In this document: in pieces, positions 26,278-42,678 of the stretch
Layout of the letters: the number at the start of each line of letters is the position of its first letter
Numbering within the stretch: position 1 is the first letter of the stretch
Assembly (NCBI RefSeq): GCF_018531425.1
Contig: NZ_JAHBOI010000003.1
Location: 248,001-312,000 of the forward strand
DNA length: 64,000 nt
Source: Paenarthrobacter sp. DKR-5
Lineage (GTDB): Bacteria; Actinomycetota; Actinomycetes; Actinomycetales; Micrococcaceae
Direction of reading: 5' to 3'
Position numbers and translations under genes: made by a program
Notes under the pieces: generated by a model
The model's input: the letters and a program-made list of their open reading frames with translations, nothing else
Databases searched by the model: none
Told to the model about the DNA's origin: nothing

Positions 26278-26440
26278 GCCGCCCCCAAGCCGCAGTTTCC
26301 CGCCGGCCCCGGCCCGCCGCCCCACCGGTTGGGAAGTGCCAATGCGGTACCAGCCCTTACGCATCGCGGTGCGCGGAAGTACTCTGTGGAAACGGCTGCG
26401 TTCGCCATGGCAGCCGTTACTCGTGCGAGGGGCGGCACAG
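26278..26440 (+). promoter_or_regulatory. Leader of array pair 2 with a 9-bp hairpin
   Basis: 163 bases between members 2 and 3. AACGGCTGC (26391-26399) pairs perfectly with GCAGCCGTT (26410-26418) around a 10-base loop, 22 bases before the chosen start. TTACTCGTGC (26417-26426) is repeated exactly at 32096-32105, upstream of pair 3. No confident -35/-10 was seen. Confidence 0.4.
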
Positions 26441-31881: not shown

Positions 31882-32205
31882 AGCCCGCCGGGCTGTGCCT
31901 GGCGGCTACCTACTCGCCGGTTACCTCCGGTGGTTTCGGGTAGTTTGCGGCTTCTGCGGCGAAGCCAAGTACTTTCCGCTGTCCATCGCGCGTATGGCCT
32001 GAAGCGGCCGGCAGGAACCAAGTAGTCCGGTCCCACGAAACTGCGTACCGCCCGAGAGTTGGCGGACGGCCCCGCCCAAGGAAGTCGAGTACCGCTTACT
32101 CGTGCCCGCCCCGCATACCCAAACCTAGGTTGGAGCTACTGGGAAAGTGCTGACGGCGCCGAAAGGATCCGCGTACTTCAATTGCATACCGGGGGAGGAA
32201 TTCAC
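31882..32205 (+). promoter_or_regulatory. Long promoter region of array pair 3 with operator-like motifs
   Basis: About 320 bases without a large gene, notably AT-richer than the flanks. It contains CAAGTAC (31966-31972) and CAAGTAG (32019-32025), the latter matching sites in both divergent polysaccharide promoters, and a perfect palindrome CGAGTA-N5-TACTCG (32086-32102). TTACTCGTGC (32096-32105) recurs upstream of member 3. A weak CTGACG/TACTTC pair (18-base spacer) near 32150-32179 could be the promoter. Confidence 0.4.
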
Positions 32206-32271
32206 ATGTTTGCCAGGTCTCATTGTCGGTCTCACTTTGACCGTCCGCTGCAGGACGGGGTTCGGTCATGA
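32206..32271 (+). CDS. Putative 21-aa leader peptide coupled to array member 5
   Basis: ATG at 32206 follows the strongest ribosome-binding site in the region, GGGGGAGGAATTCAC. It encodes MFARSHCRSHFDRPLQDGVRS and stops in a TGA that overlaps the ATG of the member 5 gene (ATGA at 32268). Member 5 itself has only a weak GACGGGG site. The arrangement suggests translational coupling, or a regulatory upstream ORF, rather than a functional peptide, though the peptide is Arg/His-rich and carries one Cys. No homologue is recognised. Confidence 0.5.
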   Translation: MFARSHCRSHFDRPLQDGVRS

Positions 32272-34898
32272 CCGCCTCCTACGCCCGGGGGCCGTTCGTC
32301 GGCCGGGCAGCGCTGGTCGAAGAACTCATCGAGGCCGTGGGCCGGCAGCGTGGCCGCGGGGCCATCCTGGTTGGACCGGCCGGCGTCGGCAAGACCTCCC
32401 TGGCGCTGCGGGCCCTGGAACAGGCCTCCGATAAGGCAGCGGTGGTGCGTGTCCATGGCAGCTCCGCCGTTTCCGGCCTGAGCTACGGGGCCCTCCGGTC
32501 GCTCCTGCAGGGGGCCAGCCCGGAAGTTTTCGAACAGCCCGTCCTGCTGATGCGCGCACTGACCAAACAACTCCAGGCCCGCGGCAACGGCAAGCAGGTC
32601 ATCCTGTTCGTGGACAACGCCCAGCAGCTCGACGACCTCGGGGCGATGGCCCTGCGGCAGCTGGTCATCGCCGGCACGGTCACCTTGCTTGCCGTCTGCG
32701 AGGACCTGCCCAAGGTCCGCGGCGAGCTCATGAGCCTGTGGCGCGACGGTCTGCTCACCCGCATCGATGTCGGCCCCTTTGATCTGGCCGAAACCACGGA
32801 CTGGCTTGCCGCACATTTGGGCGCTCCGGTGTCTCGGGCCGCCGCGCAGGCGCTGTGGGACGCGAGTTCGGGCAACCCGCTGTTGCTGAAGATGCTGCTG
32901 CAGGCCCAGGTGGATGCGCGCACGCTCGTCGACGAGCAGGGGGTCTGGGTCCTGGCCGGCACCTTGGTGCACAGCCCGCAGATTGTGCACACAGTGATGG
33001 CCACTCTCGGCCAGCTCTCCCTCTCGGAAAAGCGTGCCTTGGAAACAGCGGCGCTGTCGCAGGCCCTGCCGCTGGAGCTGCTGCTGCAAAGCACGGACCG
33101 CCGGGCAGTCGACTCGCTGCAGACCAAGGGGCTGCTGCAGGTCGAACGCACGGCGCCTCCGCTCGTCCGCGTGAAGCGGAGCCTGACTGCCGAGGTGATC
33201 AGGGGCCAGATCCCTCCGGGCCGCCGGCAGGAGCTGCGCGAAGGACTTATGGAGGCCATGGGCAGCGCTGCCGTCCCGGCGGTCGGCACGCTGGCACTGA
33301 CTTCCTGCGCGCTCGACTGCGCCGTGGAGCTCGACGCCGAGACGCTGATCACCGCGGCGCGGCTGGCAAACCGCCTCGACGAGCCCCGCAACGCGCTGCG
33401 CTTCCTGGCCGCCGTGCCGGGGCAGGACCAGCCTGCCGCGGCGCTGGTGGAAAAGGCAGCGGCTCTGCTGGCCGTGGGGGAGAACGCGGCGGCGGCCAAC
33501 GTGCTCGCCCACGCCGAGCGTGCCGGTGGCGGTACGGCACTGGACGCGGTCCAGCTGCGGATCCTGCGGAGCCGCCTGCTGCGCGCCAGCACGGAGGGAT
33601 GGCGGGACGCCGCTTCGGCCCTGGCCGGCCCCGGCGCGGAGGAGCGCGGCGCCGGGCCGGTCGACGGGCAGGACGAGGGCACCAGCCTCCTGCAGCTCGC
33701 CGGGCTCGAACTCGCCGCCTACCAGGGCCGCTACACGGACATCGAGGACGGACTCTTCACCCTCTTCACCAGGGGCTGCACGGCCGACATCCGGCTGCGC
33801 GCCGGCGCGCTGCTCTTCGAAACGTGGGCGATCTCGGGACTGCAGGGCAAAGCCGAGCGGCTCGCCGTCGACCTGTCCGTCCAGCTCGAACGCCCCGAGG
33901 TCCTTCCGCACACCCGCCACGAGGTCCAGGCACGGCTGTTCACCGCCTTCCTGACCACCGGCATCTGGGAACAGTGCGACAGATCACTCGCGGCGGGGGC
34001 CGGGAGCGCGGGCGTCGCCGACCTGCGCCAGGCCACCGCCAACCAGCTGTGGGAAGGCGTCCTGCAGGCCTACCGAGGCAACGCTGAACGGGCGTTGGAA
34101 CACCTGCGGCCAGCAGTCAGCCAGCTGCGGGTGACCGACCCGGACGGCTCGTTGCTGCTGGCGACCGCGGCCGCCGGGTACGCGTACGCTCTGGCCGGCG
34201 AGAAGAACCTCTCGCTGGACTGTCTGGGCGAATTCAAGCGCTGCGGCGGACACGCCAGCTGGCTGGTCCGCAGCACCGCCCGGTATTTCGCCACCCTCGC
34301 CTCGGCCGAACTGGCGTCGCGGGAGCTGGCCATCGAAAGGCTCGTCGCACAGGCCGACGCCGCGCGGGAGCGGGGCGCGATAGCCCAGGAACTGCGCCTG
34401 CTCAGCGGGGCCGTCCGGCTGGGCGGACTGGAATGGGTGGCCCGGCTCGCCGGCGTCGCGCACGAAAACCAGGGACACTTCGCCCAGATCTGCCTCCTGT
34501 ACGCCTCGGGGCTGGAAAACTCCAACCCCGGGCAGCTGCTGAGGGCGCTCCAGACGGCAACGGTCCTCGCCGATGACGGGTTCGCCGGCGACATCGCCCG
34601 GGCGACGGCGGACATGGCCAAGGAAACCGGGGACCGGGACACCCTCCACACCGCACGGCAGTTCCTGCAGGCCAGTGCCCGCCGCTGCGGCGGGGTGGAC
34701 CTGCTCCACGGTGACATCCAGATCCTGACGGCACGCGAGTTGGAAGTGGCCGCCGATGTGATCTCCGGAGCCAGCAACAGGGCCATCGCTGCGAAGATGA
34801 ACGTGTCGGTGCGCACGGTGGAGGGCCACCTGTACAAGATCTACGGCAAGCTCAACATCACGAGCCGGGCGGAACTGCGGGAGGTCCTGGCCTCATGA
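32268..34898 (+). CDS. LAL-type LuxR regulator, array member 5 (A-like)
   Basis: 876 aa. FVGRAALVEEL entry; Walker A GPAGVGKTS (36-44); Walker B VILFVDNAQQLD (111-122) with Asn in place of the second acidic residue, as in member 1; ASSGNPLLLK; TPR-like region; HTH 820-876 (NRAIAAKMNVSVRTVEGHLYKIY, then GKLNITSRAEL). The Walker B variant, the AAAGYAYALAG helix and the SRAEL ending place it with the A-type, though its N-terminus resembles B-types. It overlaps member 6 by 4 bp (ATGA), the tightest pair of the three, and starts inside the stop of a short leader ORF. Confidence 0.9.
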   Translation: MTASYARGPFVGRAALVEELIEAVGRQRGRGAILVGPAGVGKTSLALRALEQASDKAAVVRVHGSSAVSGLSYGALRSLLQGASPEVFEQPVLLMRALTKQLQARGNGKQVILFVDNAQQLDDLGAMALRQLVIAGTVTLLAVCEDLPKVRGELMSLWRDGLLTRIDVGPFDLAETTDWLAAHLGAPVSRAAAQALWDASSGNPLLLKMLLQAQVDARTLVDEQGVWVLAGTLVHSPQIVHTVMATLGQLSLSEKRALETAALSQALPLELLLQSTDRRAVDSLQTKGLLQVERTAPPLVRVKRSLTAEVIRGQIPPGRRQELREGLMEAMGSAAVPAVGTLALTSCALDCAVELDAETLITAARLANRLDEPRNALRFLAAVPGQDQPAAALVEKAAALLAVGENAAAANVLAHAERAGGGTALDAVQLRILRSRLLRASTEGWRDAASALAGPGAEERGAGPVDGQDEGTSLLQLAGLELAAYQGRYTDIEDGLFTLFTRGCTADIRLRAGALLFETWAISGLQGKAERLAVDLSVQLERPEVLPHTRHEVQARLFTAFLTTGIWEQCDRSLAAGAGSAGVADLRQATANQLWEGVLQAYRGNAERALEHLRPAVSQLRVTDPDGSLLLATAAAGYAYALAGEKNLSLDCLGEFKRCGGHASWLVRSTARYFATLASAELASRELAIERLVAQADAARERGAIAQELRLLSGAVRLGGLEWVARLAGVAHENQGHFAQICLLYASGLENSNPGQLLRALQTATVLADDGFAGDIARATADMAKETGDRDTLHTARQFLQASARRCGGVDLLHGDIQILTARELEVAADVISGASNRAIAAKMNVSVRTVEGHLYKIYGKLNITSRAELREVLAS

Positions 34899-37588
34899 AC
34901 CCGGAAGGGGAGCATCGCCCGCGCGGACCTGTCCCGGTTGGCCGGGCGGACGCGCTGGACGCTGTCGCCGGCAGCCTGCTCACCGACGGCGTTCTGGGGA
35001 CGCTGGTGATCGGGGACGCGGGGCTGGGCAAGACCGGCCTGGCGCGCGCGGCCCTGGCTGAGCTCGGGCCCAGGCTCAAAGCGTTCCGGATCTCCACCAG
35101 CCGCTCGCTCGCGTCGGTCCCCTTCGGGGCGCTCGCCCCGTTCCTCGACTCGCTGCCCGCTGAGGCACCGCTCTCAGGCTGGCACGTGACCGGCGCCCTG
35201 CTGGAACATCTGCGCGCCGAACTGGCCGACGGCGAGGAAGCCCTCCTGGTGATCGATGACGCGCACGACCTGGACGAAGGAAGTGCCGGCGCCGTCGCCC
35301 AGCTTGTCGCGACCGGGGGAGTGCGCCTGCTTGCCCTCGCGCGGCCGCAGCCCGGGCCCCCGGCCGCTTTGCTCTCGCTGTGGCGGGACGGCCTGCTCGC
35401 GCGCTACGACCTGGCACCGCTGGGCGCTGCGCAGAGCCGGGAACTGTGCGAACAGGTCCTTGGCGGCCCCCTGCTGCGCGCTTCCGCCGCGTTGCTGCAC
35501 CATGCCGCCGGCGGCAACCCGATGTTCCTGCTCGCGTACCTGTCCGAAGCCCGCAGGCTCGGCAGGCTCAGGGAAACCAACGGGGTGTGGATCCTCGTTG
35601 ACCACCGGCCGGCGGTCAACCCTTTCCTGCTCGACCTGGTCCGCGAGCAGCTCCTCCGGCTCGGGGAGGACGAAATCGAGGTCCTCGAGACGGCAGCCCT
35701 GGCCGAGCCGGTCCAGCTCTCGGTGTTGCTGGCCGCCGGCAGCCCCGGCGCTGTCGACAGCCTGGAGGAAGCCGGCCTGATCAAGGTTTCTGCCGGGCCG
35801 GAGCGGCAGGTGGCGCTGCACTGCCCGCTCTATGCCGAGGTGATCCGCCTGCTGGTGCCCGCCGGCCGCAGCCTCGCCCTTCACCGGCAGGTGAGTGCCC
35901 TCATCGACACCGGCACGCTCACCGGCCCCGCGCTCGTGCGCTACGTCGCCTGGTCGCTCGATGGCGGGTCCATCTTGCCTGAAGCCCTCCTGCTCCGCGC
36001 TGCGCGGGAGGCCAACCGGCTCTTTGACACCGGCCTGGCGAAGCGGGCGGCAGGGCTGGTCTGCTCGCCGGAAGGCGCCGCGGCGGCACGGGTCGAGCTT
36101 GCGCGCGCGGACTTCTACCGCGGCGACTGCGCCCAGGCGGCGGCGATGCTGCACGGCCTTCCCTCGACGGCTGCCGATCCTTCCACGATTGAGGCAAGCG
36201 CCCTGCTCGGGCTCCGGGTGGCCCTGCGCGAGGGGACTGATCCCGGCGAGCTCAGGCTGGCCGCAGCGGCTTGGAAGCAGGCCGCGGGCCGGTGCGCCGC
36301 GGCCGGCGACGTGGCGGCGGCCGCGGCAGCGGAATCCGCCGCCGCCGTCTTTGACCTGCAGGCACTCGCGCTGGACGGACGCTACCAGGAGGCTGAAGAA
36401 GGGCTCGAGCGGCTCGTTGCGGGCCCGCACAGCGTGTTCCGGGTTCTTGCCCTGACACTGCTGGCGGAAGGACTGACGTCCGCGGGCCGCTGTGACGCCG
36501 GCGCGGCAGCCAGCGAAAGGGCACTGGAGCTGCTGGGCGAGCACCCCGACCCGGCAGGGCTGGAGGACGAATGCGTCCTCGTCAGCCACGCGTTCTCCTT
36601 GCTGCAGTCCGGGAGATTCAGTGAACTTGATGCGGTGCTGGACGGATACCTGCACCGGGCTCCGCTGAGCCTTGTGTGTTTTGGCGGGACGGTCCAGTTG
36701 CTGGAGGCGCTCGCGGACCTCCGCCGCGGCCTGATGCGTGCCGCGTTGGAGAAACTGGTGGTGGCAGTCGAGGCGCTGCGGTGTTCCGATCTGGCCCAGC
36801 TCGAGCCCTTTGCCGTATCCGCCGCGGCCTACGCGGCATCGCTGCTGGGGCGGCGGGACCTCACCGAGCGCTACACCGCCGGCTTCCTGGAACTGCCGGC
36901 CGCGGGACGCCGGCAACTGCATCTGCTGGCGAGGGCCCACGTGCTGGCGGCCGGGGCTGCGGTGAACAGTGTTTCCCTCACACTCGAAAGCCTGGGCAGG
37001 CTGCGCGAGGAAGCCCTTGGTCACGGCCTGCCGGCAGCCGCGCTGGACATCGCCATGCTGGAGATCCGCCTCGGCGCGCAGGGTGCCTGGGAGGGTCTGG
37101 CGGAACTCTCCAAGCGGCTCGAGGGCCGCTACCAGGGGGTGCTCAACGACTACGCCCATGCCGTCATGGACCGCGACCCCGCGGCACTGCTGCGCACCGG
37201 AGATGACGCCGCCGACGCCGGGTACCCTCTCGTGGCGGCGGAGTGCGCCGCGCACGCGATGCGGTATCTCCAGGCCGGTTCCGTCCGGCGCGAGCTGCGC
37301 GCTGCCTCGCAGCGGTTGCAGCAGTTGCGCCCGGGCCTCGAGGGGATCGCCACCGCATTCCTCGCCCTGCCGCAGGAGACCTCGCGGCTTACCCGCCGCG
37401 AAACGGACATCGCCACGCTTGTGCTCAACGGGGCCGCCAACCGGGAAGTGGCCGAACGCCTCTCGCTTTCCTTGAGGACCGTCGAAGGCCATCTCTACCG
37501 TATCTTCTCCAAGCTGGGCATCAACCGCCGCGAGGATCTGACCGCGTCCCACTTGAATGGCAACCCGGGGATCCCAGGCGCGGCCTAG
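34895..37588 (+). CDS. LAL-type LuxR regulator, array member 6 (B-type)
   Basis: 897 aa, starting in an ATGA overlap. VPVGRADALDAV entry; Walker A GDAGLGKTG (40-48); Walker B LLVIDDAHDLD (117-127), intact; AGGNPMFLL; Ala-rich helical repeats including YVAWSLDGGS; HTH 832-887 (NREVAERLSLSLRTVEGHLYRIF, then SKLGINRRED), followed by a ten-residue tail. The DDAHDLD motif and the NRRE ending match members 2 and 4. It is the last of the array and converges with the APS kinase gene 49 bp further on; no strong hairpin was found in that gap. Confidence 0.9.
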   Translation: MNPEGEHRPRGPVPVGRADALDAVAGSLLTDGVLGTLVIGDAGLGKTGLARAALAELGPRLKAFRISTSRSLASVPFGALAPFLDSLPAEAPLSGWHVTGALLEHLRAELADGEEALLVIDDAHDLDEGSAGAVAQLVATGGVRLLALARPQPGPPAALLSLWRDGLLARYDLAPLGAAQSRELCEQVLGGPLLRASAALLHHAAGGNPMFLLAYLSEARRLGRLRETNGVWILVDHRPAVNPFLLDLVREQLLRLGEDEIEVLETAALAEPVQLSVLLAAGSPGAVDSLEEAGLIKVSAGPERQVALHCPLYAEVIRLLVPAGRSLALHRQVSALIDTGTLTGPALVRYVAWSLDGGSILPEALLLRAAREANRLFDTGLAKRAAGLVCSPEGAAAARVELARADFYRGDCAQAAAMLHGLPSTAADPSTIEASALLGLRVALREGTDPGELRLAAAAWKQAAGRCAAAGDVAAAAAAESAAAVFDLQALALDGRYQEAEEGLERLVAGPHSVFRVLALTLLAEGLTSAGRCDAGAAASERALELLGEHPDPAGLEDECVLVSHAFSLLQSGRFSELDAVLDGYLHRAPLSLVCFGGTVQLLEALADLRRGLMRAALEKLVVAVEALRCSDLAQLEPFAVSAAAYAASLLGRRDLTERYTAGFLELPAAGRRQLHLLARAHVLAAGAAVNSVSLTLESLGRLREEALGHGLPAAALDIAMLEIRLGAQGAWEGLAELSKRLEGRYQGVLNDYAHAVMDRDPAALLRTGDDAADAGYPLVAAECAAHAMRYLQAGSVRRELRAASQRLQQLRPGLEGIATAFLALPQETSRLTRRETDIATLVLNGAANREVAERLSLSLRTVEGHLYRIFSKLGINRREDLTASHLNGNPGIPGAA

Positions 37589-37637: not shown

Positions 37638-38936
37638 CTAAGCTCTGGAGCGCCGCGCCAGCAGCGCCAGGACCGCATCCACCGCGGCGTCTACCGGCAT
37701 GGAGGCCGTATCGAGCATCAGGTCGGCATCCGTCGGAACCTCGTAGGGAGCATCGATTCCCGTGAAGCTGGTGAGCAGGCCCGCCCGGGCTTTGGCGTAG
37801 AGGCCCTTGCGGTCCCGTCCCTCGCACACCTCTAGAGGGGTAGAGACATGCACCAACACGAAGGTCCCGCTGTCTTCGGCCATCAGCCGGGCCTGCGCCC
37901 TGGTCGCCTCGTGAGGGGCGATCGGTGCGCAGATGGCAATTCCCCCGGAACGCGCGACGGCAGCTGCCACCCAGGCGATACGGCGCACGTTGAGGTCTCT
38001 GTCCGCCGGCGAGAAGCCCAGCTCGGAGGAGAGCAGACGGCGCACGTCGTCGCCGTCGAGCAAAATGACCGCGCGCGGGTCGGCGTCTTGCAAACGCTCT
38101 GCAAGGGCGCGGGCGACGGTCGATTTGCCGGCGCCGGACAACCCGGTGAAGAAAACGACGAGCCCCTCGGCCCGCTGCAGGCGGGATGCCTCCCGGCCCC
38201 GGCTACCCCAGGCGGGACCGGACCCGGCACCGGCGTCCGTGGCAGGGCTGAACTCAAGCACCGTGCGGCCGCCGAGACGCTCCAACGCGTAACGGGTAAG
38301 CCCTCCGTCCGGCTGCGGGCCGCGCGGGTCCACAGGTTCGACCAGCAAGCCCACGCGGGCGCCTGGCACTTCCGCCGCGCAGCGCTGCAGGGCGGCCAGC
38401 AGCCCGGACGCGGCGTTGCCTCCCGGCCGCTGGCTCGGCACGACGGCCACCAGCAGCAGCGTGGCGCCGGCGGCCGACGTGAGGGCGGCCGCCATGGCGG
38501 CGGCGGAGGGTTCCGCGCGGAACGCCGCGACGACGAGCGGTCCGCCGTTTTCCGCGGCGACCGGCCGGGTCAGGCGCAGGGTTCGCGCCGGCGGGTGTTC
38601 GGCGGGCTGCAAGGGACTCAGCGGCCCGGCGAGGAAAAGGGTGTCCGGACCGCCAGGGGCGCTGGTCCGCACCGCCAGGGCCGCGAGCGGCGTGCCGTCG
38701 GCGTCGGTCAGTTCGAGCGCGCCGTGGCGCAGTGCCTCAGCGGCCAGCGGCAGCGGTACCTCGAGGGTGAACCGTGCCGGCCAGCCCGCCGGCGTCTGCG
38801 CTGGCAGGCAGTAACCGTCCGCAGGGGAGTACAGGCCGCCGAGCAGCAGTTCCAGCTCGTCGAGGGCAGCCGGCTGCAGGGCCAGCGCCGGACGCAGCAG
38901 CGCCAACGGCTCCGAGGCGGGACCGGGTGAGCTCAT
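37638..38936 (-). CDS. cysC: APS kinase with degenerate ATP-sulfurylase-like N-terminal domain
   Basis: 432 aa from the ATG at 38936, which overlaps the upstream TauE stop as ATGA; the open frame continues upstream but only through the permease gene. Residues about 255-432 are a complete adenylylsulfate kinase: P-loop GLSGAGKST (265-273), LDGDDVRRLLSSELGFS, DRDLNVRRIAWVA and GLYAKARAG. It phosphorylates APS to PAPS. Residues 1-240 resemble the ATP-sulfurylase N-terminal domain (ELELLLGGLYSPADGYC), but the QTRNP and HxGH nucleotide-binding motifs are absent, so this half is probably structural. ATP sulfurylase activity would come from CysDN, encoded at 42680-44838. The gene feeds sulfotransferases of the polysaccharide locus. 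Confidence 0.9.
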   Translation of the reverse strand: MSSPGPASEPLALLRPALALQPAALDELELLLGGLYSPADGYCLPAQTPAGWPARFTLEVPLPLAAEALRHGALELTDADGTPLAALAVRTSAPGGPDTLFLAGPLSPLQPAEHPPARTLRLTRPVAAENGGPLVVAAFRAEPSAAAMAAALTSAAGATLLLVAVVPSQRPGGNAASGLLAALQRCAAEVPGARVGLLVEPVDPRGPQPDGGLTRYALERLGGRTVLEFSPATDAGAGSGPAWGSRGREASRLQRAEGLVVFFTGLSGAGKSTVARALAERLQDADPRAVILLDGDDVRRLLSSELGFSPADRDLNVRRIAWVAAAVARSGGIAICAPIAPHEATRAQARLMAEDSGTFVLVHVSTPLEVCEGRDRKGLYAKARAGLLTSFTGIDAPYEVPTDADLMLDTASMPVDAAVDAVLALLARRSRA

Positions 38937-39898
38937 GAGTCCGCTCCCGTCCGCGGAGCGGCCGCCACCCGCAGGGGCAGCAGACGCGGCAGGAGTCGCC
39001 CGGCCAGGGCAGGGAAGCCAAGGCGGCGGCGAAGCTGCATCCAGACCGGCGTCCCCACCAGCAGCGCGGCAAGCAGCACCAGCACCGTCGAAAGGTTGCC
39101 GACGCCGAGCATTTTCAGCGCAGACGCCAGCAGGACGAGGGCCAGCGCGCGCCGCACGAAGCCGCCCGGCATCCGAGCCGAGAGCTGGGCGCCGAGGAAG
39201 ACTCCGGGAATGCCGCCGATCACTAACGGCACGGTGACAGCGAGGTTCAGGTCGCCAAACAGGGCATGCCCGGCGGCGGCGGAGGCCACCAGCGGAACCG
39301 CCTGCAGGAGATCGGTGCCGACCAGCTGGCCGGCCTTGAGCCCCGGGTAGAGCAGCATCAACCCGATGATCATGATCGACCCGGACCCCACGGAGGTGAG
39401 GCCGACAAAAGCGCCTCCAAGCACGCCCAGCAGGACCGTGGGCAGGCGGCGCACGGCGGCCGCGGGCCGGCACAGGCGGTGCCGCGGGACGCTTCCGTCG
39501 CGCCGACGTGCCCTGTCGGCCAGGCGCAGGTACGCCCGGACGGCCAGCAGCACCACCGTCAGCAGCAGGGCTGCTCCAAGCCCCGCCTGGATCAGCTCCT
39601 GCACCGCCTCTCCCGGCGCGGCCAGTTTGAGAAGCAGCACGGCCGAAAAAGCGGAGGGAACCGAACCCAGGGCCAGCCATTTGACGAGGCCGAGGTTCAC
39701 CGTGCCGTGGCGCAGATGCACGGCGGACCCCACGGGCTTCATCACGGCGCTTGCCAGCAGGTCACTGGACACCGCGCTGAGCGGCGGGACGCCAAAGAAG
39801 AGGACGAGGACCGGTGTCATGAGCGCGCCACCTCCCATGCCGGTCAAACCGACGACGATCCCGACTCCGAAGGCTGCCAGACCCATGGTGAGCTCCAT
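38933..39898 (-). CDS. TauE/SafE family permease (sulfite/sulfate or organosulfonate)
   Basis: 321 aa from the ATG at 39898, chosen because MELTMGLAAFGVGI starts directly at the first membrane helix; the frame opens to 40192 through non-conserved sequence. The family hallmark is the repeated GxxVGLTGMGGGALMTP (near 15-30) and VGLTSVGSGSIMIIGL (near 165-180), with about eight hydrophobic segments. TauE/SafE proteins move sulfite, sulfonates or other small anions. Its 4-bp overlap with cysC and position beside the sulfation genes suggest supply or export of a sulfur anion for PAPS synthesis; direction of transport is not predictable. Confidence 0.85.
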   Translation of the reverse strand: MELTMGLAAFGVGIVVGLTGMGGGALMTPVLVLFFGVPPLSAVSSDLLASAVMKPVGSAVHLRHGTVNLGLVKWLALGSVPSAFSAVLLLKLAAPGEAVQELIQAGLGAALLLTVVLLAVRAYLRLADRARRRDGSVPRHRLCRPAAAVRRLPTVLLGVLGGAFVGLTSVGSGSIMIIGLMLLYPGLKAGQLVGTDLLQAVPLVASAAAGHALFGDLNLAVTVPLVIGGIPGVFLGAQLSARMPGGFVRRALALVLLASALKMLGVGNLSTVLVLLAALLVGTPVWMQLRRRLGFPALAGRLLPRLLPLRVAAAPRTGADS

Positions 39899-40138
39899 GG
39901 GCGCGAGTCTGCCACGGCCGGACATCATGGCACAGCGTAATCGGCAGCCCCGCGACAGGGCGGCGGCCCGCGAACAAGTAGGCACCCGCATCCGTGCAGG
40001 AGCCGGGCAAGTAGCCGCTGCGGGAAAGTGGAGAGTCGGCGCCGGGAAGTCGGGTAGCACCCACTCACGCGCCGGACTTTTCCGGATCCTACGCTCCTTG
40101 TATTGAGTCCATACGACGGTAAGAAACGGATCTCCCCG
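39899..40138. promoter_or_regulatory. Divergent promoter region of the sulfur/EPS genes with two CAAGTAG sites
   Basis: About 240 bases between the TauE-cysC pair and the plus-strand EPS operon. CAAGTAG occurs at 39975-39981 and 40008-40014, 33 bp apart (about three helical turns), which would place two bound proteins on the same face. The same heptamer occurs upstream of array pair 3 and, on the other strand, in the second divergent EPS region at 54091-54097. No definite -35/-10 was identified; CTTGTATTGA near 40098 is the most AT-rich candidate. Confidence 0.4.
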
Positions 40139-40321
40139 ATGAGTGATGAAGCCACACCTCGAATGTTGACCAATGCCGCAGCAGTGCTGCACGCCTGGCG
40201 CTTCGGCGGCCAGGCCCCCCGTACGGGACCGGCGACGGTGGAGTCTTCTGAGACCGAGACTTCCCCCCCAGCCGTCGCCGGCCCCTCCTTCTCCGCCTTC
40301 CGCCCCGGTGACCAGCGATGA
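40139..40321 (+). CDS. Small ORF coupled to the initiating sugar transferase gene
   Basis: 60 aa, MSDEATPRMLTNAAAVLHAW to start, then a Pro/Ser/Thr/Glu-rich tail ending FRPGDQR. The stop overlaps the ATG of the downstream gene (ATGA at 40318), and the sugar transferase has only a weak ribosome-binding site of its own, both of which argue that this ORF is translated. No signal peptide, membrane segment or known domain is seen. It may be a small EPS-associated protein or merely a coupling ORF. Confidence 0.45.
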   Translation: MSDEATPRMLTNAAAVLHAWRFGGQAPRTGPATVESSETETSPPAVAGPSFSAFRPGDQR

Positions 40322-41844
40322 CCGGACTGGAGGCGACGGTCGGAGCCCGGCTCGAACGCCCGGTCATCGGCTTCGCGCCGGCCCGGTCCCGGACCAGCCG
40401 GCGGACAGCGGTCAAGCCCGGGCTCGCCTGGGCCTGGCGCTACCGGCGGCTGCTGGGCTTCAGCGACGCCGTAGTCCTGATCGCTGCGGTGGCCACGGCC
40501 CAAGTGGGCCGCTTCGGTCTCCACGAGCTCGATGCGCCCGTCAGAGGGTGGGGCATCGCATACCCGGTGATGTCGGTGGTCATCGCCGCAGTCTGGATGC
40601 TTGCCCTCGGCGCCTACCGCAGCCGGGACATCCGCGTCGTGGGCATCGGGTCGGACGAGTACAAACGGGTGGTCAACGCCACCGTCACCGTCCTCGGGGT
40701 GCTCGGCATCGTGTGCCTGGTCTTCAAGGTCGACGTCGCGCGGGGCTTCTTTGCCTTGGCATTCCCGCTAGGGGTGTCGGGCTTGCTCGGTTCACGTTGG
40801 GCGCTACGCCAGTGGCTCACCCGCCAGCGGGTGAAAGGCCACTACCTTTCCCGCGTGATCGTGCTCGGAAACCGCAAGGACGCCGCGTACGTGATCAACC
40901 AGATCGACAAGAAATCCGGAGCCGCCTATGAGGTGGTGGGTGCGGCGCTGCCGGCCGGTGACCCGAGACTGAGCCTGGCCGTGGGAGCTCGGCAGGTCCC
41001 GGTCGTCTGCACTGCCCACTCGGTCATCGACGCCGTGCGCACCACGGGGGTCGATGCCGTCATCGTGGCAGGCCCGCTCAAGGGCGGCAGCTCGTATATC
41101 CGCAAACTTGGCTGGCTTCTGGAGGAGACCGGCACCGAACTGGTCCTGGCAACCGGCCTGACCAACGTTGCCGGCCCGCGCATCCATTCCCGACCGGTGG
41201 AAGGCCTGCCGCTGATGCACGTGGAGTTGCCGCAGTACTCCGGGGCGAAGCACGCCTTGAAGCGTCTGACCGACATCGTGCTCTCCGGCGTCGCGCTCGT
41301 CGCGCTGGCCCCGCTGTTCCTTGTCCTGGCCATAATGGTCAAACGCGACAGCCCCGGGCCTGTGCTCTTCCGGCAGGAACGCGTGGGCCGCGACGGCGAG
41401 CCCTTCCGGATGCTGAAGTTCCGCTCCATGGTGGACCACGCAGAAGACAACCTCGCGGGCCTGCTGGCGCAGAACGAAGGCGCGGGGGTGCTGTTCAAGA
41501 TGCGCGACGATCCCCGGGTGACCAAGGTCGGCACCTGGATGCGGCGGTACTCCCTCGACGAACTGCCGCAGCTGTGGAATGTGCTGGTCGGCGACATGAG
41601 CCTGGTCGGGCCGCGGCCGCCACTGCAGCGCGAGGTGGACGGATACAAGAGCCATGTGCACCGCAGGCTCTACATCAAGCCGGGCCTGACAGGCCTCTGG
41701 CAGACGAGCGGCCGCTCCGAACTGAGCTGGCGCGAGAGCGTCCGGCTTGACCTGTACTACGTCGAAAACTGGTCCCTGACCGGCGACATCATGATCATGT
41801 GGCGCACCGCCAGAATGCTCACGAACCCCGTCGGCGCCTACTAG
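40318..41844 (+). CDS. Undecaprenyl-phosphate sugar-phosphate transferase (WbaP/CpsE type)
   Basis: 508 aa, first major gene of the EPS operon. N-terminal membrane helices (about 40-165), a central soluble Rossmann-like domain (VIVLGNRKDAAYVINQI, about 178), and a C-terminal transferase domain: KRLTDIVLSGVALVALAP, LFRQERVGRDGEPFRMLKF, YSLDELPQLWNVLVGDMSLV with GPRPPL, and KPGLTGLWQTSGRS. This is the polyisoprenyl-phosphate hexose-1-phosphate transferase family, which puts the first sugar of a repeat unit on undecaprenyl phosphate. It therefore starts the polymer made by the locus. Which sugar (glucose or galactose usually) cannot be told. Confidence 0.93.
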   Translation: MTGLEATVGARLERPVIGFAPARSRTSRRTAVKPGLAWAWRYRRLLGFSDAVVLIAAVATAQVGRFGLHELDAPVRGWGIAYPVMSVVIAAVWMLALGAYRSRDIRVVGIGSDEYKRVVNATVTVLGVLGIVCLVFKVDVARGFFALAFPLGVSGLLGSRWALRQWLTRQRVKGHYLSRVIVLGNRKDAAYVINQIDKKSGAAYEVVGAALPAGDPRLSLAVGARQVPVVCTAHSVIDAVRTTGVDAVIVAGPLKGGSSYIRKLGWLLEETGTELVLATGLTNVAGPRIHSRPVEGLPLMHVELPQYSGAKHALKRLTDIVLSGVALVALAPLFLVLAIMVKRDSPGPVLFRQERVGRDGEPFRMLKFRSMVDHAEDNLAGLLAQNEGAGVLFKMRDDPRVTKVGTWMRRYSLDELPQLWNVLVGDMSLVGPRPPLQREVDGYKSHVHRRLYIKPGLTGLWQTSGRSELSWRESVRLDLYYVENWSLTGDIMIMWRTARMLTNPVGAY

Positions 41845-41856
41845 GAACGGAAAGCA

Positions 41857-42678
41857 ATGATCCTCCTGAACAGACTGGGCACGCTCGCCGCAGGCGGCCT
41901 GACCGACCAGCAGCTCGCCGAGGCTCTCGCCCGCAAGGCCGGGGAGAGCCTGCTCAAGATCCAGTCCGCCGTCCTGCGGGCCGGCGAGGGCCGCGAGCCG
42001 GCCGGTCTCGGAGCGGAGGGGGACAGGAAATCGCAGGAATACCTGCGCAAGGCCCTGGCCCGGACCCGGCCGCAGGATTCGGTGCTTTCTGAGGAAGCCG
42101 CGGACGACCCGAGGCGGCTGTCCGCGAAACGCGTCTGGATCATTGACCCATTGGATGGAACGCGCGAGTTTTCCGAAGGCCGCCGCGACTGGGGGGTGCA
42201 TGTGGCCCTGTGGTCAGGCGGCAACCTTACAGCCGGGGCGGTGGCACTGCCCCGGCTGGGGCTGGTGTGCGGAGCACCCGCCCAGCCGCCGGCGCGGTCC
42301 ACGGGCCGGAAGATCCGGCTGGCGGTGTCACGGAGCCGGCCGCCGCGCATCGCCGAGACCGTGGCCGCGCACCTCGGCGCCGAGTTGATCCCGATGGGCT
42401 CTGCCGGATACAAAGTCTGCGCGGTCGCCAGCGGAGAGGTCGACGGCTACCTGCACGACGGCGGCCAGTACGAATGGGACTCCGCGGCGCCTGTGGTCGT
42501 GGCCCGCTCCGCGGGGCTGCACGTGAGCCGGCTCGACGGCACTGCGCCGCGGTACAACCAGCCGGATCCGTACCTGCCGGACCTGCTGGTCTGCCGCCCG
42601 GAACTGCGCGACAGGTTGCTGGAAACCATCAAGAGGGCCCGGCTCAGCGAAGCCGCAGCCCGGAAGACGGGAGACTGA
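41857..42678 (+). CDS. cysQ: CysQ-like 3'(2'),5'-bisphosphate nucleotidase
   Basis: 273 aa, GGAAAG before the ATG, 12 bp after the sugar transferase. Inositol-monophosphatase superfamily signatures: SEEAADD, the metal site WIIDPLDGTREF and QYEWDSAAPVVVAR. EFSEGRRDWGVHVAL is typical of CysQ-type enzymes. It would dephosphorylate PAP, the product of sulfotransferases, preventing product inhibition. Placement directly upstream of cysDN and in the same operon as sulfotransferase-like genes supports this over an inositol role. Confidence 0.88.
   Translation: MILLNRLGTLAAGGLTDQQLAEALARKAGESLLKIQSAVLRAGEGREPAGLGAEGDRKSQEYLRKALARTRPQDSVLSEEAADDPRRLSAKRVWIIDPLDGTREFSEGRRDWGVHVALWSGGNLTAGAVALPRLGLVCGAPAQPPARSTGRKIRLAVSRSRPPRIAETVAAHLGAELIPMGSAGYKVCAVASGEVDGYLHDGGQYEWDSAAPVVVARSAGLHVSRLDGTAPRYNQPDPYLPDLLVCRPELRDRLLETIKRARLSEAAARKTGD

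Follow-up and report, generated by a model that had tools for sequence, protein, structure and literature searches.

Overlapping genes can be coupled in translation, and strict coupling was reported for 13 of 14 such pairs examined in E. coli and Haloferax (Huber et al. 2019, PMC6728339). In E. coli, synthetic nonsense ORFs placed upstream are described as raising translation (PMC13255528). Frame transitions between neighbouring frames have been outlined for prokaryotic genes (PMC3711429), and regulators of the LAL type are also known (PMC3282765, PMC9659744).

The locus described here lies in a 64,000-nucleotide stretch of DNA from Paenarthrobacter sp. DKR-5, the whole of which was analysed and is referred to as the window. 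Six tandem LAL-type regulator genes are present, each predicting a P-loop ATPase domain and a C-terminal LuxR HTH, and 386 bases separate regulator 4 from regulator 5. These six regulators have their domain order and size in common with the known LAL regulators as presented in PMC3282765 and PMC9659744. Regulator 5 is preceded by a 21-codon leader ORF. As in the overlapping gene pairs of PMC6728339, the two ORFs are co-directional, share an ATGA stop-start overlap and have a strong Shine-Dalgarno sequence (SD) on the upstream ORF; unlike the pairs outlined there, the upstream partner is not a gene but a 21-codon ORF with no apparent peptide function. Like the synthetic ORFs of PMC13255528, the leader is a short out-of-frame ORF directly before its target with an apparently irrelevant peptide, but it is natural, and whereas the synthetic ORFs are summarised as having a strong ribosome-binding site beside the stop, here the strong site precedes the leader and a moderate SD-like stretch lies near the stop. 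The locus also resembles the frame transitions of PMC3711429, being fused in relatives and in two frames here, although here the split separates an initiation segment that lies beyond the ATPase domain. A limited literature search, of titles and abstracts, returned no description of a leader ORF before a LAL regulator.

The leader ORF and its overlap with regulator 5

The features of the region are as follows.

32087..32101, no strand assigned, GAGTA-N5-TACTC dyad, putative LuxR-type operator, with similar sites upstream of relatives
32126..32131, + strand, TAGGTT, putative -10, at a conserved operator-to-TANNNT spacing
32191..32199, + strand, SD of the leader, GGGGGAGGA, core GGAGG at 32194-32198, -11.0 kcal/mol
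32206..32271, + strand, 21-codon leader ORF, ending on an ATGA overlap with the regulator 5 start
32215..32234, + strand, ancestral initiation block retained as a relic (AGGTCTC...TGTCGGTCTCA) inside the leader, aligning with locus L002
32223..32240, + strand, dead ancestral start, TTG and four codons then TGA in the regulator's frame, at the position of the GTG start of L002
32238..32268, + strand, possible hairpin pairing 32238-32243 and 32263-32268 and covering the SD-like GGACGGGG of regulator 5, within chance expectation
32268..34898, + strand, regulator 5, LAL type (AAA_16/AAA_22 and LuxR HTH), 876 aa, from domain matches
34895..37588, + strand, regulator 6, LAL type, 897 aa, starting on an ATGA overlap with regulator 5

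The leader runs from ATG 32206 to TCA TGA (stop at 32269-32271) and predicts the 21 aa peptide MFARSHCRSHFDRPLQDGVRS. Its stop overlaps ATG 32268 of regulator 5 in the ATGA of TCATGACC (32266-32273), exactly as had been claimed from the sequence-only reading. The start of regulator 5 is forced and does not lie elsewhere nearby, because an in-frame TGA is found at 32238-32240 and 32268 is the sole ATG, GTG or TTG listed between that stop and the first 20 codons. The regulator 5 product is of LAL type, with matches to AAA_16 (E 9.8e-12) and GerE (E 3.4e-14) over 876 aa.

The Shine-Dalgarno GGGGGAGGAATTCAC upstream of the leader ATG was confirmed. Using an anti-SD core that we take to apply here, although it may not be this genome's own, the duplex energy is -11.0 kcal/mol for the leader versus -7.0 for the SD-like stretch of regulator 5 itself. 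Only 0.4% of the 3221 ATG and GTG triplets in the window have an equal or better SD than the leader, and the regulator 5 stretch falls in the best 7% of the same set. The earlier statement that the best SD of the region serves the 21 aa ORF holds among the 14 start codons listed at 31895-32268, where only TTG 32210, beside the same SD, ties with it. The SD of regulator 6 is likewise -11.0, and that of the leader is thus not the single best of the regulator cluster. At -7.0, the SD of regulator 5 resembles those at the ATG of regulators 1 and 3 and is stronger than that of regulator 4. Leader GC3 is 0.55 versus 0.88 in regulator 5, and is similar to that of the in-frame extensions found at the same place in the nine most closely related loci (0.38-0.65).

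An overlap by itself is cheap, but an overlap with an SD of -11.0 is not: 864 of 2000 dinucleotide shuffles of the intergenic region hold some ORF of 5-45 codons ending on the start, whereas an overlapping ORF with an equally strong SD arose in 10 of 2000, and in the genomic background the regulator 5 leader is the single case with SD <= -10.9 (1 of 170 genes). This background was compiled by rough gene calling over 400 kb of the same genome and the window, keeping genes that have 120 nt or more of free DNA upstream. With the threshold at SD <= -9, two of the 170 genes have an overlapping leader ORF. The other gene, on the minus strand in the first 200 kb of G000:C9 (L114-L123), has a 25-codon leader with an SD of -9.3 and a 4-nt overlap.

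The 21-codon ORF is probably a translation-initiation device that couples regulator 5 to an efficient upstream start by termination and reinitiation. Ribosomes would load at the strong leader SD and translate a peptide of no importance in itself; having terminated at TGA 32269-32271, they would begin again at ATG 32268, which overlaps that stop. The stop-start overlap belongs to the types associated with this process (ATGA or TGATG), and an SD of -11.0, among the best 0.4%, is consistent with efficient upstream initiation. Coupling by termination-reinitiation would account for the strength of the SD and the exactness of the overlap, as well as for the low GC3 and the unconstrained peptide. Translation of the leader, and dependence of regulator 5 upon it, are what the arrangement suggests; dependence is not forced by the sequence, since the SD-like stretch before regulator 5 (-7.0) is itself usable, which is the counterpoint to coupling. 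The hairpin that would cover the regulator 5 start is within chance, with 29/200 and 27/200 shuffles giving one as good.

It had also been suggested that the leader acts on a pair of regulators, and the pairing is borne out by the ATGA at 34895-34898 through which regulator 6 overlaps regulator 5; regulator 6 would be coupled in the same way. If coupling is correct, the locus holds a natural leader ORF whose peptide is irrelevant and through which the dosage of two regulators is set, and as such the leader is a natural new instance of the already known stop-start coupling.

The initiation region in the closest relatives

A family-wide search gave a match at E <= 1e-90 in 97 of 395 genomes, in a comparison set with one genome of the genus. 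The regulator 5 query against genome contigs gave 40 pattern matches, of which none was confirmed. In a quick tree of 61 rows, drawn from the 113 loci then collected, regulator 5 is sister to nine loci and the ten-row group has an SH-aLRT of 97; the 40 short upstream loci L065-L104 were inspected visually and enter no count.

The regulators of all nine sister loci have their start codon 9-11 nt downstream of where a GGTCTC block begins, and the 81-87 nt from there to the domain anchor are in frame, so that none of the nine has a separate leader at that place. The boundaries of the leader ORF, whose lack of conservation had been named beforehand as evidence against the leader, are absent from the closest relatives (9/9), where an in-frame extension is found instead. 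More widely, all 27 related regulators examined have GGTCTC 9-11 nt before an in-frame start, at a distance of exactly 10 nt in 23 of them, where the start was taken as the first in-frame ATG or GTG 6-19 nt after the start of GGTCTC, a choice that favours tidy spacing. Among the loci with the block that were examined (L002, L004, L006 and L036-L064), it occurs in more than one reading frame, and only its AAGG side is SD-like. GGTCTC was considered as a dedicated regulatory element and rejected as unspecific, a loose form of the pattern occurring in eight of eight genomes with 7-13 matches versus 0-6 in the reversed control; the SD-like AAGG may account for this excess.

A relic of the block is retained inside the leader at 32215-32234. 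Its local alignment with L002 scores 28, a value reached by 0 of 500 shuffles, and among the alignments with the other eight sister loci none reached 5%. The TTG at the position of the L002 start is poorly served by its SD (-3.2), and a stop ends its frame after five codons. The leader ATG is 17 nt upstream of this dead TTG and 86 nt from the domain anchor, off frame, compared with 81-87 nt in frame in the sister loci. The alignment with L002 favours a new start that would have formed upstream of the dead one, and the distance to the anchor suggests that the leader ATG may itself be the ancestral start with its frame broken. Under either reading the separate leader appears to be new in this lineage and would replace the ancestral initiation site. 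The coupled leader would have arisen when the ancestral start of regulator 5 lost its open frame, the presumed ancestral state, still found in the nearest relatives, being an N-terminal extension that is in frame, poorly conserved and preceded by the GGTCTC block. Should this be correct, the relatives with their fused state would permit a direct measurement of what coupling adds over a simple start site.

The same 86 nt, off frame here and matched by 81-87 nt in frame in the nine sister loci, could also reflect an assembly or sequencing frameshift in a gene that is really fused as in the relatives. This is improbable: the relic block and dead start argue for real re-modelling rather than one error, and a strong SD together with an exact ATGA overlap would not be expected from an error. 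An exact-pattern search for independent sequence of this species gave no matches, in a resource from which its own records may be left out.

An N-terminal extension that decayed after its frame broke could leave the leader as a by-product, perhaps translated, with regulator 5 starting independently and no notable coupling. The fused, poorly conserved extension of the nearest relatives has the same length (81-87 versus 86 nt), a relic frame with an in-frame stop remains, and the SD of regulator 5 itself (-7.0) would serve an independent start. However, the leader SD is stronger than a by-product would be expected to have (10/2000 shuffles; 1/170 genes), its stop falls exactly on the regulator start, and overlapping leaders recur in other clades, and we consider this explanation unlikely.

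Leaders in other clades

Comparable leaders were found in a further genus, g31, in which 38 genomes were searched and 12 matched places in 11 genomes were obtained at E <= 1e-110. Seven of the regulators carry a 36-codon leader (35 codons in one case) with its TGA inside the first codons of the regulator, in a 7-nt overlap of the form ATGYTGA. Four of the other five places have a different arrangement, and L113 is outside the leader comparison. For six of the seven leaders, leaving out the one that is a codon shorter (L049), pN/pS is 0.91 over all codons and 0.98 over codons 2-33, versus 0.22 for codons 3-62 of the regulator. The leader frame carries no peptide signal, since the shifted frames give 0.83 and 0.94. 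In these leaders the ORF boundaries are kept and the peptide drifts as if unconstrained. Coupling is the best explanation because, in this seven-regulator clade, the architecture is kept and the peptide is not. Other loci are closer to regulator 5 than those of g31, which bear on the window leader as an analogy.

A 19-codon leader with an SD of -10.0 and an ATGA overlap precedes the regulator of L009, from another genus, whose own SD is weak (-4.3). Credible leaders occur at no fewer than three separate positions in the tree, namely the window, the seven-locus clade and L009; the number of independent origins is uncertain, because the tree is a quick one in which long branches meet (L003 with L113, L008 with L009). 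L003 and L008 were rejected as further leaders, as their 24-codon ORFs have moderate SDs (-5.6 and -5.1) that could be due to chance, and the regulator of L008 has a better SD of its own (-8.0). Inspection of L005, L007, L105, L032 and L035 gave no convincing leader. L109, L111 and L112 have just a 6-codon ORF ending 9 nt before the start, and L110 has such an ORF and one of 38 codons with an SD of -6.2. In these four species (L109-L112) a GC-rich stretch ending in CACC[AG]TGTAGTGGGGCGCTATG abuts the regulator start and is nearly identical by eye; the DNA upstream of it differs, and a start codon is followed by an immediate stop.

We tentatively suggest that the 5' segment before the ATPase domain in tandem LAL regulators could be an interchangeable initiation module, alternating between an in-frame extension and an out-of-frame leader coupled through its stop. 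In the window lineage the operator, the -10 and the length of the segment would have been kept through the switch, a possibility that we put forward with the same reserve. This apparent exchange within one regulator family is the most interesting aspect of the locus.

A putative operator and the possibility of a sensing leader

A transcription start downstream of 32206, which would have spoken against the leader, is not indicated. The LuxR-type dyad and TANNNT motif, both upstream of the leader by comparison with relatives, place the predicted transcription start near 32138, and the leader and regulator 5 would then share a transcript; a scan for the sigma-70 consensus found no promoter. GAGTA-N5-TACTC occurs exactly once in the 3.78-Mb genome, at 32087-32101, and a rough estimate expects about one such match. 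The spacing from operator to TANNNT is 38 or 39 in 18 of the 27 loci examined, including the window (39); seven of the other nine have no operator match to the pattern and two have no TANNNT in range. The dyad may mediate autoregulation.

The leader had been offered either as a coupling device or as a sensing leader. Coupling is the better supported mechanism, though by inference, and the sensing half found no support. For sensing, stalling on the peptide or on particular codons would control regulators 5 and 6. The placement before a regulator pair is in keeping with this, as are the single Cys codon and the presence, a few kb downstream on the opposite strand, of sulfur genes (APS kinase, TauE), and the leader loosely resembles cysteine-regulation leaders of actinobacteria. 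However, there is no codon run in the leader, it is absent from 9/9 sister loci, and the peptide is unconstrained in the clade with comparable leaders (six compared). Searches at the leader found no terminator, no surplus of RNA structure (z +0.98) and no Rfam family, and the peptide has no NCBIfam match. Neither a terminator or alternative RNA structure under the control of leader translation, as in attenuation, nor a conserved peptide or regulatory codon run was thus seen, the latter judged from the codons, the sister loci and the pN/pS of the analogous clade. A cysteine-attenuation leader in particular was rejected on the one Cys codon, the missing terminator and the absence of an NCBIfam match. 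Sensing is accordingly very improbable and, if coupling holds, the locus is a warning against taking every short leader before a regulator for a sensor.

Downstream of the regulators, window positions 37638-42678 predict an APS kinase, a sugar transferase, an inositol-phosphatase family protein and a TauE-type exporter, which may belong to a cluster for a sulfated polysaccharide. Before regulator 3, at 26376-26440, GGAAGTACTC and CGTTACTCGTGCGAGG resemble the operator before regulator 5, and the regulator 3-4 pair may therefore be transcribed from a separate promoter that is controlled in a similar way.
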